A DNA stretch of 64,000 nt from Verrucomicrobiia bacterium (GTDB lineage Bacteria; Verrucomicrobiota; Verrucomicrobiia; Opitutales; Cerasicoccaceae): contig JAUIHT010000001.1 in NCBI GenBank assembly GCA_030432235.1, forward strand, positions 1,426,001 to 1,490,000, read 5' to 3'. Made by a program: the position numbers and the translations under genes. The notes beneath the pieces are model-generated. The model searched no databases and had not been told where the DNA came from. It saw only the letters and a program-made list of their open reading frames with translations. How positions within the stretch are numbered: position 1 is the stretch's first letter; each line of letters starts with the position of its first letter. Positions 9,107-49,466 of the stretch are shown here, piece after piece.

Positions 9107-10474
9107 TTATTTTTCCTCTTGTAGCTTGCCGATAAAGGCCAGCGCGGCGTCGATGTCGAGGGCCATGAAGTCGGCAAAGCCCAGCCCGGCGACCTTGACG
9201 GCGCGGGCGCGGGCATTCAGGCGTTGCCCGTGGCAGTCGGGGCAGATGTTGCTGGTCTGGTACTGCATGAGTCGGGTTTTGAGCCCGTCGCTGCTGGTGG
9301 TGCGCCGGGTCTCGGCGAGATCGGCCAGGACGCCTTCAAAGGGCAAGACTTCGGGCTTGGTGTTGCCAGGCTTGAGCTTGAAGGAGAAGAGACGTTCACC
9401 CGCGCCGTGCAGAATCTGGTGGCGCGTGTCCTCGGGGAGTTCGGACCAGGGCGTGGTGGGGTCGAAGGGCAGTTGCTCCGCGAGCTGCTTCAGGATGGCA
9501 TTGCGTTTGATGATCATTGCCTTGGAGCCGAGACGCCAGGGTTTGATGGCGCCACCGCGCACGGTCTTGGACGGATCGGGTACAACGAGTTCGGGCAGGA
9601 ACTGGTTGGTGCGGCCCACGCCACCACAGGTAGGGCAGGCGCCTTCGGCGTGATTCCAGGAAAAGTGTCGCGGGCTGAGTGGCTCGTAGACCACACCGCT
9701 GCTTTCACCGGCGAGTGCGCGGCTGAGCAGGATTTCCTTCCAGGGAGAGTCTTTGTCCGCCTGTACGAGGGCGAGCGCACGGTCACCGCCTTCGCTCAAG
9801 GCCAGCTCTAGGCTGTCGGCGATGCGTGCGCGCTGGTCTTCGCGCAGCATGAGGCGGTCGACCACGACTTCGAGATTCATCTCGCCACGGGTGCTGGGGA
9901 ACTTTTCCAGGTCCGCGATCTCGTGTACTTCGCCGTCCAGGCGCACGCGCTGGAATCCCTTTTGCCGCAGGCGCGGCAGCTCCTCGCGGATGACCGAGGC
10001 CTTGGCTGTGATGACCGGTGCGAGCAGCAGGCAGCGGCTACCCTCGGGCTCCCGCAGCAGCCGCGCGATACAGTCGTCGAGACTGCGCCGGATGATGCGA
10101 CCGCCGTCGATGGGGTCGAACTGCTCGCCGCGCACGGCCCAGAGCAGCCGCGCGTAATCCGCAATCTCCGTGACGGTGGCGACGGTGCTGCGTGGGTTGC
10201 CCGCGCCGCCGGTGCGCTGCTCGATGGCGATGACGGGTGAGAGGCCGTGGATGAAGTCGACGTCGGGCCGCTTCATTTGCTCGAGCATGCCGCGGGCGCG
10301 GGCGGAAAGACTTTCGATATACTTGCGGTAGCCCTCGGCGTAGAGTGTGTCGAAGGCCAGCGAAGATTTGCCCGAGCCACTCACTCCGGTGATCACCACG
10401 AGCTTGCCGCGCGGGATGCGCAGCTCCAGGTCGCGCAGATTGTGTTCGCGCGCGCCTTTGATGTGGATGTCCAT
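9107..10474 (-). CDS. uvrA: UvrA excinuclease, N-terminal half (split gene)
   Basis: 455 residues matching UvrA from its first residue up to just before ABC signature I. Walker A I is GVSGSGKS (30-38... region), followed by the UvrB-binding-type region (about 130-240), the ACPTC half of the first zinc module and the insertion region with [10 protein letters not shown]. The first CxxC pair of zinc module 1 is absent: residues before [13 protein letters not shown] contain no cysteines. The protein ends FIGKLQEEK-stop, and the C-terminal half begins at the residue expected next. This half lacks signature and Walker B of the first ATPase, so it cannot form a complete site alone. Confidence 0.9.
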
Positions 10475-10553
10475 TCTGTTTATCGGTTATCGATTCTTAG
10501 CTAGCGGTTTCCAGTTCAGGAACGGAGCCGTCTCGTTCGCACGGTAAGTTAAC

Positions 10554-10595
10554 CGAAAACAGACAATCGAAAATCGACAACTGAAAACTAATAAT
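10554..10595. repeat. 7-nt-period degenerate tract
   Basis: Six consecutive heptamers (CGAAAAC, AGACAAT, CGAAAAT, CGACAAC, TGAAAAC, TAATAAT) between the uvrA N-terminal half and the next gene; the last unit overlaps the stop codon of the gene at 10588. A looser, inverted relative lies at 10477-10516. It belongs to the same type of tract as 13034-13061, 39552-39607, 47908-47942 and 48003-48042. Confidence 0.6.
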
Positions 10596-11494: not shown

Positions 11495-13033
11495 CTAAGG
11501 CCCGCCGAAGTATTGCTGCCAGAAGTCCTGCTCGCTTTCCGGCTTGTCCATGGCGTTGATTTTGGCGGCGGATTGTTGGGCTACGCGGGGCAGGCCGCCG
11601 GTAGCATGCGCGAGGTTGGCAATGGAAATGGAAAGGTTGGCCTCGGCGTCGACGAGGTCCTGGCGTGACTGGTCGAGGTCCTGCTGTGCGGTCAGGAGAT
11701 CCAGCAGGCTATTGATCCCGGTTTGGTAGCCGATATTAATGGCCTCATAGGCTTCACGCTGGGCTTGTACGGCGGCACGCTGGGCGGTGACTTCACCGAT
11801 GGCGGAACGGAAGCCAAAGTAGTAGGTCCACACGCTGGAGAGTACGCTGAGTTCCTGCGCACGCAGATTCTGGCGGGCTTGACGGGCGAGCGAACGCGCG
11901 CTTTGGATGGCGTACTTGTTGTTGAAACCGTCAAAGATGTCCCACTCCAGGGCGAGGTAGGCCTGATAGTCTTCCACTGTTTCAAAGCCTGTGCTGTCCG
12001 TGTTTTCATAAGAGCCGGTGACACCGGCTGTGAGCTCGGGCCAGAGGTCGGCCTGGGCGGCGCTAAGGTTGGCGTCGGCTTCACGCACCGCTGCATAAGC
12101 GGAGAGGATGGCCGGCCGGTTTTGTAAGGCGACGGCCAGGAGGCGAGAGACATCCTGATCGATTTCGTGGAAGGACGGTGGGTCCAGTGGCGGAACGATT
12201 TCCAGGTAGGCACCGACTTGCAGACCCAGCGTGGTGGCGAGATTGGCCCGGGCTTCCTCGATTTGCGCGATGTCCTGCTGTTCCTGGGCTTCGGCGCTGC
12301 GGACGCTTGCGAGGGCGCGCAGGGCATCCTGCTTGGTGCCCAGTCCGGACTCGAGTTTTTTACTGGCGGCGTCGTAGGTGGCCTCGGCATTGGCGAGTAG
12401 CGCGCGTGTGGCCTCGAGCGTGGAGTTGGCGGCGTTGAGGTCGTAGTAGGCCGTCATGACGTTGAGCACGACATCCTGGTAGGTCTGGTTGTAATCAAAG
12501 TTGGCAGCGTAAAGGGCCTCCCGGGCAGCGTCGGCGATAGCCTCGCGTCCACCGAAATTATAGAGGAGCCAATTGATATCGAGCGTCGGGCCGTAGGCTG
12601 TCTGGTAGAACGAAGTATTGGGAAACAATTCGTTCTTTAGCTTGGTTCGTGAAAGGGTGTAGCCGGCAGTCACCTGCGGGTAATAGGTGCTCAGGCTTTG
12701 CCCGTATTGTGCGGCGACTGACTTCGCGGCAAACCACGAGCTGCGAGTCTGCGGGTTGTTCTCCAGCGCGATGTCCACCAGAATGGGTAGTTCCAGTGGT
12801 CCCATGCCGACGAGGGCGCTGGCGGTGTTCGGATGAGCGCTGTTTTTCTGGTTCTGGTTAGGCGAGGGCAGGGCCTTTACCGGAGGTTTCCACTGCTCGG
12901 TGGGACGGTGCGCCACCTCCTTGTCGACGTTGACGCAGGAAGTGAGTGTAAAGCAGAATGCCAAGAACAGAAGGCCGGAGAGCGGGGTAAGTCCGCGTGC
13001 CTGTCTTGAATCCGTTGTCAGTAGTTTTTTCAT
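11495..13033 (-). CDS. Outer-membrane efflux protein (TolC/OprM family lipoprotein)
   Basis: 512 residues from ATG 13033. A signal peptide ends in a lipobox LTSC (Cys about residue 33), as in OprM-type channels. The rest contains the duplicated long-helix architecture of the outer membrane factor family. It forms the exit duct of the RND pump encoded upstream on the same strand. An in-frame ATG at 13048 would add five residues, but it lies inside a 14-nt tandem repeat (13034-13061), so the MKKLL start at 13033 is preferred. Spacing to the RND gene is about 40 bases. Confidence 0.9.
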   Translation of the reverse strand: MKKLLTTDSRQARGLTPLSGLLFLAFCFTLTSCVNVDKEVAHRPTEQWKPPVKALPSPNQNQKNSAHPNTASALVGMGPLELPILVDIALENNPQTRSSWFAAKSVAAQYGQSLSTYYPQVTAGYTLSRTKLKNELFPNTSFYQTAYGPTLDINWLLYNFGGREAIADAAREALYAANFDYNQTYQDVVLNVMTAYYDLNAANSTLEATRALLANAEATYDAASKKLESGLGTKQDALRALASVRSAEAQEQQDIAQIEEARANLATTLGLQVGAYLEIVPPLDPPSFHEIDQDVSRLLAVALQNRPAILSAYAAVREADANLSAAQADLWPELTAGVTGSYENTDSTGFETVEDYQAYLALEWDIFDGFNNKYAIQSARSLARQARQNLRAQELSVLSSVWTYYFGFRSAIGEVTAQRAAVQAQREAYEAINIGYQTGINSLLDLLTAQQDLDQSRQDLVDAEANLSISIANLAHATGGLPRVAQQSAAKINAMDKPESEQDFWQQYFGGP

Positions 13034-13061
13034 TTCTGAATTCTGCATTCTGAATTCTGCG
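13034..13061. repeat. Tandem 14-mer (7-nt period) between RND and channel genes
   Basis: TTCTGAATTCTGCA followed by TTCTGAATTCTGCG, i.e. four heptamers. It abuts the preferred start codon of the outer-membrane channel gene and contains an alternative in-frame ATG. Confidence 0.7.
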
Positions 13062-39084: not shown

Positions 39085-41922
39085 ATGAGCGCCGGCGACA
39101 GTTTTCCCATGCTCGACCTCTATCAGCAAGAGGCCGAAACGCATGGCGCCGCGCTCAACGACGGGGTGCTGGAGCTGGAGAAAAATCTGGAAGCGCCGTC
39201 CAAGGATACTTTGGATGCGCTCATGCGGGCGGCGCATAGCCTCAAGGGTGCGGCGCGCATCGTCGGCCTGAAAATCGTCGGCGATGTCGCCCACGTGCTG
39301 GAGGACGTCTTTGTCAAGGCAGGTCAGGGTAAGCTGGCCTTTGCCGTCGATAACCTCGACGAGCTGCTCCGCGCCGTCGACCTGATGGTCGCCTCCGGCA
39401 AGCAGGACGAGGCCGCGATGGGAGACTGGCTCAAGGCCAACGAACACCTGGCCGAGGATATCATCGTAGACTTAAAAGCCATCGAGGACCGCTCCGCGAA
39501 AAAAACGCCCCCCGTCGAGTCTCCCGAGGTCCCTGAGAAATCATCTGTGCCTTCTACGTCTGCAGTCTCATCTCCTACATCTGAAATCAAAAATCAGAAA
39601 TCTGAAATAAACTTGGCCGATGCCTCCATGCTGGACCTCTTCCGCACCGAGGCGGAGACCCAGCTCGGCACCTTGTCCGGTGGCCTGGTTGAGCTGGAGG
39701 ACGACCCGTCGCCCGAGCGCGTCGAGCCGCTCATGCGGGCGGCGCACAGCCTGAAAGGAGCGGCGCGTATCGTCGGCCTGGGGCCCGCCGTGGACCTTGC
39801 CCACGCCATGGAGGACGTCCTTGTAGCCGCCCAGAACGGCCAGTTGGAGCTAACCTCCGACGGCATCGACCTGCTCTTGCGCGCCACCGACTGGCTCAAG
39901 GCGATGTCCGTTGCCTCCGAGGACGAGCTCACCGCCTGGCCGCAAACGCACGGCGACGAGCTGGCAAACTTCCTCGCTGATTTAAAAGCACTGCTCGCAG
40001 GCGAAGCCCCCAAGGCCAAACCCGCGCCGCAGCCCGAGCAAAAGTCTCCCGAGCCACCCGCACCTTCGCCTGCGCCCACTGCCGAGTCTCCCTCGTCACC
40101 CGTTCCTCGTCCCTCGCCCCCCGTTGAGAAACCGGCAAAGAAGGAAACCGCCAAAGCGTCGTCCGGCAGCCGCTCCGACTCCGTTGTGCGCGTCTCGGCG
40201 GAGAATTTGAACCGCCTGATGGGCCTGGCGGCTGAGACCTTGGTGGAGACGCGTCGCCTGGAGCCTTTCCGCGAGAGCCTGTTAAAACTCAAGGAGACGC
40301 AGGCGGAGCTGAATCACCGCATCGAGGTCGCCGGGGCTTCGTTGGAACGGCAGCAGTTGCCGCCGACGGTGGAAGCGGAGCTGCACCAGGTCCGCGCCAG
40401 CGCGCGCCAGGGCCTCGAGGCCATCCGGCGGCAGATTGACTTTTTCGACAGCTTTTCGCGCAGCCACACCTTGCTCTCCGACCGCCTCTACCGCGAGGTG
40501 CTCGATAGCCGTATGCGCCCCTTTGGCGACGGCACCGTGGGCTACCCGCGGCTCGTGCGCGACCTCGCCCGCTCGTTGGAGAAGAAGGTCAAGTTCGAGG
40601 TCGAGGGCAAGGACACTCCGGTCGACCGCGACATCCTCGAGAAGCTCGACGCGCCGCTAAACCACATCCTGCGCAACGCCTGCGACCACGGCCTCGAAAC
40701 GCCCGCCGAGCGCGAGGCCGCGGGCAAGGACGCCAACGGCCACCTCTCCCTCAGCGCGCGCCACAGCGCCGGCATGCTCGTGGTCGAGGTCAAGGACGAC
40801 GGCAAGGGCATCGATATCGAGCGCGTGCGCGCCAAGGTGCAGGAGCGCGGGCTCTGCGCCGCCGACATGGCCGAGCACATGACCGAGGAGGAGGTGCTCG
40901 AATTCCTTTTCCTGCCCGGCTTCTCCACCGCCGGCAGCGTCACCGAGATTTCCGGGCGCGGCGTCGGGCTGGACGTCGTGCAGACCATGATGCAGGAAAT
41001 CGGCGGCCACGTGCGCGTGCAGACCGCGCTGGGGCAGGGCAGCACCTTCGTCATCGAGGTGCCCATCACGCGCTCGGTCATCCGCGCGCTGCTGGTCGAA
41101 ATCGACGGCGAGCCCTACGCCTTCCCGCTCAACCGCATTGTGCGCACGCTCCACCTGCCGCAGCAGGACGTCCGCGCGGTGGAAAACCGCCAGTACTTCA
41201 CCCTCGACAGCGCCAACGTCGGCCTCGTCTCCGCCGACGCTGCGCTGGGGCTCACCGGTCATGCTAGCAGCATCAGCCCCGAGCTGACCGTCGTGGTGGT
41301 CAACGACCGCAGCAACCTCTACGGGGTTGAGGTGGACAAACTTCTCGGCGAGGCCTCGCTCGTCGTGCGCCCGCTTGACCTGCGCCTCGGCAAGGTGCCC
41401 GGCATCTCCGCCGCCGCGCTGACCGAGGAGGGCGCGCCCCTGCTCATCGTCGACGTCGAGGACCTCGTGCAGGCCGTGGACAAGCTCCTCTCGGGCGGCT
41501 CACTCGTCCGCGCCGAGCGCCGCGAGGGCGGCGAGTCCAAACGGCAGCGCCGCGTGCTCGTGGTGGACGACTCCCTCACCGTGCGCGAGACCGAGCGCCA
41601 GCTTTTGGAGAACGCCGGGTTCGCCGTGGAGGTTGCCGTCGACGGCGCGGACGGCTGGAACGCGGTGCGCCTGGGCGACTTCGACCTCGTAGTCAGCGAC
41701 GTCGACATGCCGCGCATGAACGGCTTCGAATTCGTGGCCAAAATCCGCGCCGACAAACGCCTCGAGCGCGTGCCCGTCGTCATCGTTTCCTACAAGGACC
41801 GCGAAGAGGACCGCATGAAAGGCCTCGAAGCCGGCGCCGACTACTACCTCACCAAGAGCTCCTTCCAGGACGACACCTTCATCAACGCCGTCGAGGAACT
41901 AATCGGCGGGGCCGAGTCATAG
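39085..41922 (+). CDS. cheA: Hybrid CheA kinase with two Hpt domains and receiver (WspE-like)
   Basis: 945 residues. Hpt domain 1 with H51 and Hpt domain 2 with H221 share the identical segment LMRAAHSLKGAARIVGL, indicating duplication. Next come a Pro-rich linker, dimerisation domain, HATPase (LNHILRNACDHG, DDGKGID, GRGVGLDV), CheW-like regulatory domain and a C-terminal receiver (VVDDSLTVRE, phosphoacceptor in SDVDMPRMNG). The order and the fused receiver match WspE, except that WspE of Pseudomonas has one Hpt. The linker between the two Hpt domains is encoded by eight consecutive 7-nt units (39552-39607). It is the last gene of the operon before the repeat island. Confidence 0.95.
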   Translation: MSAGDSFPMLDLYQQEAETHGAALNDGVLELEKNLEAPSKDTLDALMRAAHSLKGAARIVGLKIVGDVAHVLEDVFVKAGQGKLAFAVDNLDELLRAVDLMVASGKQDEAAMGDWLKANEHLAEDIIVDLKAIEDRSAKKTPPVESPEVPEKSSVPSTSAVSSPTSEIKNQKSEINLADASMLDLFRTEAETQLGTLSGGLVELEDDPSPERVEPLMRAAHSLKGAARIVGLGPAVDLAHAMEDVLVAAQNGQLELTSDGIDLLLRATDWLKAMSVASEDELTAWPQTHGDELANFLADLKALLAGEAPKAKPAPQPEQKSPEPPAPSPAPTAESPSSPVPRPSPPVEKPAKKETAKASSGSRSDSVVRVSAENLNRLMGLAAETLVETRRLEPFRESLLKLKETQAELNHRIEVAGASLERQQLPPTVEAELHQVRASARQGLEAIRRQIDFFDSFSRSHTLLSDRLYREVLDSRMRPFGDGTVGYPRLVRDLARSLEKKVKFEVEGKDTPVDRDILEKLDAPLNHILRNACDHGLETPAEREAAGKDANGHLSLSARHSAGMLVVEVKDDGKGIDIERVRAKVQERGLCAADMAEHMTEEEVLEFLFLPGFSTAGSVTEISGRGVGLDVVQTMMQEIGGHVRVQTALGQGSTFVIEVPITRSVIRALLVEIDGEPYAFPLNRIVRTLHLPQQDVRAVENRQYFTLDSANVGLVSADAALGLTGHASSISPELTVVVVNDRSNLYGVEVDKLLGEASLVVRPLDLRLGKVPGISAAALTEEGAPLLIVDVEDLVQAVDKLLSGGSLVRAERREGGESKRQRRVLVVDDSLTVRETERQLLENAGFAVEVAVDGADGWNAVRLGDFDLVVSDVDMPRMNGFEFVAKIRADKRLERVPVVIVSYKDREEDRMKGLEAGADYYLTKSSFQDDTFINAVEELIGGAES
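39552..39607 (+). repeat. In-frame 7-nt-period tract inside cheA
   Basis: Eight consecutive heptamers, most beginning TC (TCTGCAG, TCTCATC, TCCTACA, TCTGAAA, TCAAAAA, TCAGAAA, TCTGAAA), translated as a Ser/Thr then Ser-Glu-Ile-Lys-Asn linker between Hpt1 and Hpt2. Composition is AT-rich inside a GC-rich gene, and the period matches the intergenic tracts elsewhere in the window. Confidence 0.85.
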
Positions 41923-47115: not shown

Positions 47116-47919
47116 ATGACGAATAAGCAGCGCCTGGACCTGATCGAGAAGTTTATCCGCGAGCATAAGTACGCGGATTTGCACACGCTGGCGCAGAAGT
47201 TCGACATCAGCCTGTCCACCGTGCGGCGCGCTCTGAACGACCTCGAGACGACGGGCATCGTGCGGCGGCATCACGGTGGCGCGAGTCTGGTCGAGGGCGA
47301 AGCCGGCAGCGGCGGCTACGACTTTATCACGCAGGACGACCGCCAAGCCGACGAGAAGCACGCCATCGCGCAGTGCCTGTCGCAGTACATCGAGCCGGGC
47401 ATGACCGTACTCATCGACGGCGGCACGACCACCTACGCGGTGGCGCGCCAGCTCGTGGAGAAGCGGCTCGTCATCATCACCAACAGCCTGCCCATCGCGG
47501 CGCTCTACAGCGAGGTCGGCTCCTGCGAGACCATCGTCACCGGCGGCACGGTCTACAATCGCCTGGGCATCCTCTACGGCCCCTCTTGCGAGCGCGCGAT
47601 TTCCCAGGTCCATGCTGATGTGGCCATCATCGGCTCGGCGGGCATCACGGCGGAGGGCATCTGGAACAACAACAGTTTCATCATCGCCAACCAGCTCAAG
47701 GTCATGGAGGCGGCGGACAAGGTGTACTTCGTCATCGACAGCACCAAGCACGAGCACCGCAACGTTCACCACTGCTGCGAGCTTTCAGACAAATTCTCCC
47801 TCGTCACCGACAAGGCTCCGCCCGACAAGCTGGCTGCCGCTTTGAGAAAAGCCGGTACGGAAGTTATCGTAGCCGAGCCCGCCGCCCTTCATCCCGAGGA
47901 TGAAGAAGCCGAAAGCTGA
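47116..47919 (+). CDS. DeoR-family transcriptional regulator, probable rhamnose regulator
   Basis: 267 residues. N-terminal DeoR helix-turn-helix (RLDLIEKFIREHKYAD, LSTVRRALNDLE, VRRHHGGA) and C-terminal DeoRC sugar-phosphate sensor domain (LIDGGTTTYAVA, IVTGGTVYN). It normally represses sugar catabolic genes and is relieved by a phosphorylated sugar. The rhamnulokinase gene follows 134 bases downstream on the same strand, so control of rhamnose use is likely. Its stop codon lies inside a 7-nt-period repeat (47908-47942). Confidence 0.88.
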   Translation: MTNKQRLDLIEKFIREHKYADLHTLAQKFDISLSTVRRALNDLETTGIVRRHHGGASLVEGEAGSGGYDFITQDDRQADEKHAIAQCLSQYIEPGMTVLIDGGTTTYAVARQLVEKRLVIITNSLPIAALYSEVGSCETIVTGGTVYNRLGILYGPSCERAISQVHADVAIIGSAGITAEGIWNNNSFIIANQLKVMEAADKVYFVIDSTKHEHRNVHHCCELSDKFSLVTDKAPPDKLAAALRKAGTEVIVAEPAALHPEDEEAES

Positions 47920-48042
47920 AAGTCCAAAGCTAAAAGCCGAATACCTTTACGTTCACCGTACTGACCTTTTACAAATTACCCAACAACCCCCACGAATTTT
48001 AAGAGCTCTCCGCTTTAAGCTCTAGGCTTTCAGCTTTCGGCT
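47908..48042. repeat. Inverted pair of 7-nt-period tracts between deoR and rhaB
   Basis: Tract 1 (47908-47942) is five heptamers GCCGAAA, GCTGAAA, GTCCAAA, GCTAAAA, GCCGAAT. Tract 2 (48003-48042) is, read on the minus strand, GCCGAAA, GCTGAAA, GCCTAGA, GCTTAAA, GCGGAGA. The first two units are identical in both, so the tracts can pair as a long stem around a 60-base loop. Tract 1 contains the deoR stop codon. Confidence 0.88.
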
Positions 48043-48053
48043 CCACCCCTTCC

Positions 48054-49466
48054 ATGAAACGAACCCATTGTGCAGCCATCGATTTAGGTGCGACCAGCGG
48101 ACGCGTCATTGTCGGATCCTACGACGATGACGGCCTCGAGCTGACTGAAATTCGTCGCTTCCCCAACGCCTTCCATACCCTGGGCAAGCATGCCTACTGG
48201 GACTTGGGCGGCTTCTACAGCGAGGTCAAGGCCGGCCTGGCCGAGGCCAAGCGCCTCTTTCCCGATTTGGCCTCCTGCGGCGTCGACACCTGGGGCGTCG
48301 ATTACGTCATGCTCGACCGCAACGGCCGGCTGGCTTTTCCCACGCACGCCTATCGGGACCAGCGTACCGAGCCGCTGCTGAAGAAAATCAAGAGCACCGG
48401 GCAGGACAGGGCGCTCTACGACTGGACCGGCATCCCGGCTATCAACTACAACACCGGCCTGCAGCTGGCCGAGACCGTCACGGCTTTCCCGCACCTGAAG
48501 GAAGTCGTGGACCGTGTGCTCTTCCTGCCCGATTATTTTAACTATCTGCTCTGCGGCGCCATGGCCAATGAGGTTTCCATCGCCAGCACAGGTCAGCTAC
48601 TGGACTTGAAAGGTGTGGCTTTCTCCAGTGAAGCGCTGGAGTACTTCGGTATCCCGCAGAGCTGGTTCGAAGGGCCGACCAAGGCCGGCCGCCGGCTCGG
48701 TAAAATCAAGGACATCCCGGAACTGGATGGCGTCGAGGTTATCCTCGCCCCTGGGCATGATACTTCCTGCGCCTTCGAGGCCATCCCGCAGACGGGCAAG
48801 TCGATGCTCATCTCCGCGGGCACCTGGCTGCTGACCGGAGGCCTGACGGAAAAACCCGCCACGGGAGACGAAGCTTATACGCTAGGCGTTTCCAACGAAC
48901 GTGACGGACTGGGTGGTTTTCGCCCGAACAAAATCCTCCTTGGCCTGTGGCTGCTGGAGCAGACCTTGCCCTCCTTCGATAAGCGTCCTGAATCCGCCGC
49001 CGAGTGGAGCTCGCTCATTGAGGCGGCCGAGGAAGAGTCTCCGGCCGAGGTCTGTATCGACACCACCGATCAAACGCTCTTCAATCCCGCCAACATGCGT
49101 GCCGCCATCGACGCCAATCTCAAGCGCCAGAAGGCGAAGCCGCCCGAGACCTTGCCCGGCTACACGCGCCTGATTTGCGACTCCCTCGGGCGTAGCGTAG
49201 CGGCCACGGCGGAGAAGTTTGCCCGCATGACCGGCACGGAGTTCGACAGCATATCCATCGTCGGCGGTGGCTCAAAGAACCGCCTGCTCTGTCAGCGCAT
49301 CGCGGACTTCTCCGGCTGGCCCGTTTCCAGCTACAGCCTGGAGGGCACGGCCGTCGGCAACATCGGCTATCAGCTTCTCGGCCTGGGTCGCGTACCGAGC
49401 CTCGAAGTGTTCCGTCAGACCATTGCCCGTAAGCTCAATTCGCAAACCTACCAGCCCCGCGCCTGA
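48054..49466 (+). CDS. rhaB: Rhamnulokinase
   Basis: 470 residues of the FGGY kinase family with the RhaB-type N terminus AIDLGATSGRVIVG, GVDTWGVDYVMLD, the substrate segment YNTGLQLAE and C-terminal IVGGGSKNRLLCQ. It phosphorylates L-rhamnulose to rhamnulose 1-phosphate. No rhaA, rhaD or transporter is in the window, so the rest of the pathway must lie elsewhere. Paired with the upstream DeoR regulator. Confidence 0.9.
   Translation: MKRTHCAAIDLGATSGRVIVGSYDDDGLELTEIRRFPNAFHTLGKHAYWDLGGFYSEVKAGLAEAKRLFPDLASCGVDTWGVDYVMLDRNGRLAFPTHAYRDQRTEPLLKKIKSTGQDRALYDWTGIPAINYNTGLQLAETVTAFPHLKEVVDRVLFLPDYFNYLLCGAMANEVSIASTGQLLDLKGVAFSSEALEYFGIPQSWFEGPTKAGRRLGKIKDIPELDGVEVILAPGHDTSCAFEAIPQTGKSMLISAGTWLLTGGLTEKPATGDEAYTLGVSNERDGLGGFRPNKILLGLWLLEQTLPSFDKRPESAAEWSSLIEAAEEESPAEVCIDTTDQTLFNPANMRAAIDANLKRQKAKPPETLPGYTRLICDSLGRSVAATAEKFARMTGTEFDSISIVGGGSKNRLLCQRIADFSGWPVSSYSLEGTAVGNIGYQLLGLGRVPSLEVFRQTIARKLNSQTYQPRA

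Follow-up and report, generated by a model that had tools for sequence, protein, structure and literature searches.

How can a tract of DNA keep an exact 7-nt period while the sequence of its units changes? The question is raised by the junction between a DeoR-family regulator gene and a sugar kinase gene in a bacterium of the class Verrucomicrobiia, within the window of 64,000 nt that was analysed. The original prediction, made from this window, described two inverted heptamer tracts at the junction and took them to represent a repeat class defined by its period rather than by a fixed sequence, with the sequence itself free to drift.

The deoR-kinase junction

The junction holds a fold-back element. 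Tandem Repeats Finder and a lag-7/lag-14 scan both recovered heptamer tracts at 47906-47941 and 48004-48042, confirming that tracts in 7-nt phase lie inverted to one another between deoR and the gene predicted to be rhaB, which encodes an FGGY-family sugar kinase. The regulator gene occupies 47116-47919 on the plus strand (Pfam DeoRC, 2e-39, and HTH_DeoR; C-terminus compared with relatives), and the closest named relatives of its product are from Cerasicoccus species, which places the genome in Verrucomicrobiota near Cerasicoccaceae. The left arm of the element (47907-47940, plus strand) reads AGCCGAA, AGCTGAA, AGTCCAA, AGCTAAA, AGCCGA, which belongs to the dialect that we call AAAGYNN. As had been predicted, the deoR stop codon, a TGA at 47917-47919, lies inside this arm; it falls in heptad 2, so that the repeat encodes the C-terminal AES of the regulator. 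A loop of 68 nt (47941-48008), present as a single copy in the genome, separates the left arm from its inverted partner, the right arm (48009-48042, minus strand). The two 34-nt arms are 85% complementary, and their outermost 16 nt are identical. The kinase gene (48054-49466, plus strand; Pfam FGGY_N and FGGY_C) begins 11 nt past the right arm. Folded as RNA, the element reaches -46.2 kcal/mol (z=-7.1). No intrinsic terminator, in the form of a GC-rich stem followed by a T run, was found in 47800-48150, and no Rfam family matched the element at gathering thresholds.

Two similar tracts elsewhere in the window, reported at 10554-10595 and 13034-13061, are both real by Tandem Repeats Finder. The first of these, which we place at 10551-10591 (plus strand), has an inverted partner that had been overlooked at approximately 10480-10509 (minus strand; AAACYRA/AATCGAN dialect), and it is therefore also one of a pair. 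This second fold-back, 10480-10591, occupies the intergenic gap at 10475-10587, and it folds no better than shuffled sequence (z=-1.2). The neighbouring gene at 9107-10474 (minus strand) encodes a UvrA-type protein of just 455 aa with UvrA interaction and DNA-binding domains and is followed by an unrelated regulator gene; it looks like a truncated UvrA paralogue. The tract at 13034-13061 (minus strand; CAGAATT/GCAGAAT) is single and does cover an alternative start codon, as had been suggested: it supplies an upstream ATG for the outer-membrane efflux protein (OEP) gene at 11495-13048, from which the protein would begin MQNSE-MKKLL. A further tract of the AAATCYR type, absent from the original prediction, was found at 39566-39608 (plus strand). 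It lies in frame in a CheA-like gene and encodes SEIKNQKSEIN, the linker joining two Hpt domains of the protein.

Genome-wide abundance and anatomy

The source genome comprises 5.72 Mb in 42 contigs, of which 1.598 Mb, or about 28%, was read. This portion contains 70 heptamer loci, implying about 250 per genome by extrapolation. The proposed class survived comparison with shuffled sequence: at a lag-7 score of at least 7, a 1.198-Mb sample yielded 60 tracts, as against 2 in a dinucleotide-sampled control. Other periods in the same 1.198 Mb gave 1 (period 5), 12 (period 8), 3 (period 10), 1 (period 11) and 0 (period 13) tracts; periods divisible by 3 were likewise elevated, as coding sequence predicts. 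The genome therefore has the tandem 7-nt excess over chance that characterizes heptanucleotide simple-sequence repeats. Open reading frame calls, made with a crude longest-ORF model, place 68 of 101 tracts outside genes, whereas the non-coding share of the sample is just 6.8%. Density is uneven, with a single heptamer locus in the 200 kb of C20:1-200000 and about 30 in the 400 kb of C42:1-400000; the DNA of C20 is possibly foreign or of more recent origin.

Inverted pairing is the rule. Two tracts were found at 35 loci, in inverted orientation at 32 of them and in direct orientation at 2, with 1 locus ambiguous; the members of an inverted pair share their heptamer type. In the 32 strong pairs, arms of 17-46 nt (about 4-6 heptads each) enclose loops of 24-143 nt, for a total span of 77-217 nt. 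Elements occupy a median of 87% of the intergenic gap, with arms flush with both gene ends. They show no preference for the orientation of the flanking genes (21 codirectional, 6 convergent, 5 divergent). A role as terminators was considered and rejected, there being no T-run and no clear excess at convergent genes. Conservation does not extend to the ends of the elements, and no sequence beyond the heptads is common to them; the conserved palindrome with a tag sequence that marks REP/REPIN elements is absent. The class is as it was predicted to be: genome-wide, recognized by its 7-nt period and inverted pairs, with members that differ in sequence. At C42:371449-374776, five successive intergenic gaps are occupied by heptamer tracts; those in the first three, at least, lie at the 3' ends of PEP-CTERM-like paralogues, where the arms encode a basic tail.

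Each locus is written in one of several dialects, AAAGYNN, GATGAAA, GCTRARY, AAACYRA or AAATCYR. The most frequent is AAAG[CT]NN, under which the dialect classifier mis-binned one GATATGG-type pair and one weak pair. Orientation is constant within a dialect: in the first arm, the cores of AAAGYNN, GCTRARY and GATGAAA lie on the plus strand and those of AAACYRA and AAATCYR on the minus strand. We did not retain a YRR motif that would unite the two orientation classes, since palindromic steps make it trivial. The elements also share a polarity. Of 34 untied pairs, 32 have a first arm in which G outnumbers C, whichever strand is read (binomial p 7e-8, a value that treats pairs as independent although dialects are shared). 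The same polarity is seen at all 6 loci between convergent genes, implying that start-codon context is not its source.

A fixed core and free positions

What became of the idea that the class is defined by period rather than by sequence? The period stands, but period alone does not define the class, which consists of a few dialects with a near-fixed core. Nor is the sequence free to drift, since some positions of the heptamer are nearly fixed. In tracts taken without dialect selection, differences between neighbouring units range from 10% to 51% according to position, and this position-specific variability (chi 136) far exceeds the maximum of 17.6 in simulations of uniform drift on the same tracts. 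The near-identical units with uniform drift that would be expected of a heptanucleotide simple-sequence repeat are therefore not found here. The same contrast appears between arms: in AAAGYNN pairs, arm-to-arm mismatches occur at 14 of 254 positions in the AAAG core (5.5%) and at 42 of 116 in the two free positions (36%; p=2.6e-13), a contrast somewhat biased by the selection of pairs on the AAAG core, which is why the chi test without dialect selection matters.

A second relation holds within each locus. Arms at the same locus are more alike than arms of the same dialect at other loci (permutation p=5e-5), and at a few loci the arms match exactly over 31 nt, imperfect units included. There is no outer-to-inner gradient in arm identity. 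The elements are thus conserved in two layers, a core that is held everywhere and a mirror relation that is specific to the locus. The period persists because the heptamers combine a fixed core with free positions.

Loops and single arms

The loops, in contrast with the shared heptads, are unique. Loop-to-loop similarity is not above background (5 matches from 38 loops, compared with 20 from 200 controls), and 23 of 24 loops have no second copy in the whole genome; the exception holds a different dispersed repeat. The sample and the whole-genome search together rule out the loops being copies of each other or of other genome segments, and the internal sequence common to copies of a MITE or insertion element is missing. 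A different, dispersed fold-back family (CCACAGATGACCACAGAT..., GCCGCAGATGGACG...CGTCCATCTGCGGC) is present in the same genome, at C37:166463-166605 (L053:6463-6605) and L065:11867-11940 (C42), with diverged copies elsewhere; once, it lies within the loop of a heptamer element.

We also considered whether the loop is the ancestral spacer, and rejected this as a general account. Alignments of whole loops to the spacers of relatives are mostly not significant (p=0.015 to 0.95), and at the PFOR-DHOD and lspA gaps described below such an origin is impossible. The loop at the clpP-clpX junction does keep GTCGATAAA, which is conserved in the spacer of relatives, and there a retained spacer fits better than a foreign loop. 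In a pair of PEP-CTERM paralogues, the left arm and a terminator loop are common to both, whereas the right arm is present in one copy only, suggesting that arms can be added or lost singly.

Gain at gene junctions

Up to nine genomes of the family were examined at seven conserved junctions that bear an element in the source genome (G000): deoR-kinase, clpP-clpX, mreB-mreC, frr-proB, DksA-like-lspA, PFOR-dihydroorotate-dehydrogenase-like (PFOR-DHOD) and BCCP-OadB. At all seven, the nearest relative compared, G001, lacks the element and has nothing but a gap of no more than about 40 nt. This is the presence and absence at orthologous sites that a MITE or insertion element would show. G001 is only about 81% (DeoR) and about 85% (ClpX) identical to G000, a distance that makes a fine ordering of events impossible.

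Two junctions have almost no ancestral spacer. At PFOR-DHOD, G001, G002, G006 and G008 have a gap of -4 to 3 nt, compared with 120 nt in G000, and the gap at lspA measures at most about 12 nt in all 9 relatives, compared with 153 nt, including a loop of 71 nt, in G000. Other relatives carry fold-backs of their own at the same places. At PFOR-DHOD, G005 and G009 have an AAATTCA-type and G007 an ATTATGA-type element, of 86-96 nt and with unlike loops; G005 and G009 show poor synteny over about 200 kb and so fall short of a strain-like comparison. At mreB-mreC, G008 and genus g4 bear their own, different inverted elements. At frr-proB, heptad tracts occur in three g4 genomes, in two of which an arm appears to enter the start of the proB coding sequence (RNPQSAIRN). 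Because G001 is bare and other relatives have their own fold-backs at the same junctions, we conclude that gain is lineage-specific and recurrent. No target-site duplication was evident by eye at the seven junctions, where the relatives are too diverged for spacer alignment.

Distribution across Verrucomicrobiota

The pattern AARY repeated four times at 7-nt spacing, which covers one heptad family only, has matches in 222 of 288 Verrucomicrobiota genomes, distributed very unevenly. Among the matches listed, each genome favours its own heptads. The reversed heptad pattern is not a valid control, as it also matches heptads in another register; it reaches extremes of 927 and 790 matches in G233 and G324 (genus g147), whose genomes measure 4.4-5.1 Mb. 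In genus g59, three genomes (G153, G057 and G118) have 69-370 matches, counting both patterns on both strands, and most of their congeners have none or few. An Opitutaceae metagenome-assembled genome carries a UvrA-like open reading frame (L035:4395-9339) with three in-frame heptad tracts, one of them an inverted pair.

Origin of the elements

The explanation that we tentatively prefer, with a probability that we would put somewhat short of even, is that fold-back inserts are gained whole, after which template switching with a 7-nt register preserves the likeness of their arms. After its split from the nearest relative compared, the lineage would have acquired about 250 short inserts at gene junctions. 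Each would enter as a unit, in the manner of a non-autonomous fold-back insertion; we infer this from two junctions at which the loop could not have come out of an ancestral gap that spanned about 12 nt at most. The arms would later be maintained by intramolecular template switching together with slippage, with only the core needing to pair. The core would be the part that must pair, or that is bound by the inserting enzyme, and units that had lost it would no longer be copied; free positions and loop could drift, and the period would outlast the drift. In E. coli, template switching is an established route to inverted copies and to the correction of imperfect palindromes into perfect ones, and it has been proposed for the evolution of RNA genes (PMC7202029, PMC8794818). 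Evidence against insertion comes from the unshared loops, the unconserved ends and the lack of an evident target-site duplication, since mobile elements usually show at least one of these.

It is also possible, if unlikely, that the elements grew in situ. A slippage tract would arise at the edge of a spacer, snap-back of the nascent strand would write a mirror copy at the opposite edge, and the old spacer would become the loop, with neither an insertion event nor dedicated machinery required. The arms that lie flush with gene ends and fill most of the gap, and the loop at clpP-clpX, are explained well in this way. The PEP-CTERM paralogues that differ by a right arm, and the best of the loop-spacer alignments, also speak for it. 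It does not explain the junctions almost without ancestral spacer: the gaps at PFOR-DHOD and lspA could not have yielded loops of 29 and 71 nt. Nor would it lead one to expect a G-first polarity fixed by dialect.

We regard a selected function as unlikely. The arms would be arrays of binding sites, each with a fixed 5-nt core and a 2-nt spacer, or parts of a required hairpin, and purifying selection would hold the core; regulation, chromosome organization and DNA uptake are among the proposed roles. Conservation of the core beside diverged free positions and loops is what this predicts. The GGGANTN repeats of Xanthomonas have the same pattern of five fixed and two free positions and the same convergent pairs (PMC4692102), and the strong RNA fold of the deoR-kinase element is also in its favour. 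However, selection leaves the dialects unexplained, as at least five in one genome would need several binders, and it accounts neither for indifference to gene orientation nor for the bare junctions of the nearest relative compared. The second fold-back in the window folds no better than chance, and the searches for a terminator and an Rfam family found neither. Sense-strand mismatches of the G.U type number 34, compared with 26 of the A.C type; this difference is not significant, so selection for an RNA stem is not clear.

Templated end extension appears very improbable. Here a telomerase-like polymerase would add repeats to both 3' ends of a double-strand break, with filler DNA joining them. 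Under this model both arms would bear the same repeat, the repeat strand would run toward the loop on both strands, and the first arm would be the richer in G; the core would be fixed and other positions loose, loops would be unique and the target would not be duplicated. It fits the polarity and the core well, but the exact 31-nt mirror arms at some loci, imperfect units included, speak against it, and we know of no bacterial enzyme that works in this way.

Finally, ordinary heptanucleotide simple-sequence repeats produced by polymerase slippage, as proposed for the heptanucleotide excess of many bacteria (Mrazek 2007, via PMC4679880 and PMC4692102), and then drifting neutrally, are largely refuted here and remote in probability, because positions differ fivefold in variability, far beyond uniform-drift simulations, and because inverted pairing at 32 of 35 loci, the similarity of same-locus arms and the fixed polarity are left unexplained.

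Relation to known repeats and significance

A search of the literature on heptamer repeats and related terms, covering few subscription journals, turned up no account of fold-back elements written in multiple dialects. Previously surveyed heptanucleotide repeats reportedly consist of near-identical units, and we know of no description of them as fixed-core, fold-back pairs. Those repeats, the long repeats of Mrazek 2007 and the cyanobacterial heptanucleotide repeats of Mazel 1990, share with ours an intergenic 7-nt tandem excess, to go by the papers that cite them; over-representation of heptanucleotides is already known (Mrazek 2007, as cited in PMC4679880 and PMC4692102).

The closest parallels are two heptamer systems. 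In Xanthomonas, GGGANTN/GGGAATC repeats are conserved at positions 1-4 and 6, have mostly 4 units and are about 90% intergenic (Rehm et al. 2015, PMC4692102), and 70 of 186 (Xcc) and 75 of 183 (Xac) form convergent inverted pairs; the Nostoc heptamer GGGGA(T/C)T is treated alongside them (PMC4692102). A 7-nt unit consisting of a core with two free positions, and convergent pairing, are both found here. Xanthomonas, however, has a single G-rich heptamer that has been read as a G-quadruplex, whereas our elements are written in several A-rich dialects and pairing is the rule. The main dialects lack the G-runs of a quadruplex-capable heptamer, so that the G-quadruplex explanation cannot be general. 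The TAACTGA repeats of marine Beggiatoaceae, cyanobacteria and Bacteroidetes (MacGregor, PMC4679880) are likewise intergenic heptamers, in two to six copies and sometimes interrupted by a related heptamer. Their arrays are direct and lie mostly just upstream of start codons, with 1 inverted case in 170 (PMC4679880). There a single fixed heptamer is repeated directly, whereas here several dialects form inverted pairs at both gene ends.

Among mobile and palindromic elements the likeness is one of architecture. MITEs and Rickettsia palindromic elements are short palindromic repeats interspersed at gene junctions and occasionally lie in frame within genes. REP/BIME elements are described in similar terms, as short palindromic interspersed repeats at gene junctions (PMC3733652). 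All of these have a family-wide sequence, whereas here just the heptad dialect is common and the loops are unique. The Foldback and Galileo elements of Drosophila are described as having inverted arms of internal tandem repeats, and the Galileo arms as holding multiple transposase binding sites (PMC4168063, PMC3573991, PMC3688188). As those sources present them, they are kilobase eukaryotic transposons; the elements described here have arms of 17-46 nt.

The richness of bacteria in 7-nt repeats has been an open question since at least 2007. Existing explanations in terms of G-quadruplexes or translational regulation rest on one heptamer each, and slippage on perfect repeats. Fold-back pairing, the division into core and free positions, G-first polarity and recurrent gain are constraints on any mechanism, and they open the question to testing through genome comparisons inside a single genus; the contrast within g59 provides a natural comparison for finding the maker of the elements. 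That maker could be bacterial machinery dedicated to the task, either a polymerase that adds repeats or a transposase that reads heptad arrays, writing G-first arms in many phyla in lineage-specific dialects, with the GGGANTN repeats of Xanthomonas and the TAACTGA repeats of Beggiatoa among its products, although we consider so broad a proposal quite unlikely. If a dedicated enzyme does make the elements, its activity would add a new route by which repetitive DNA enters genomes.
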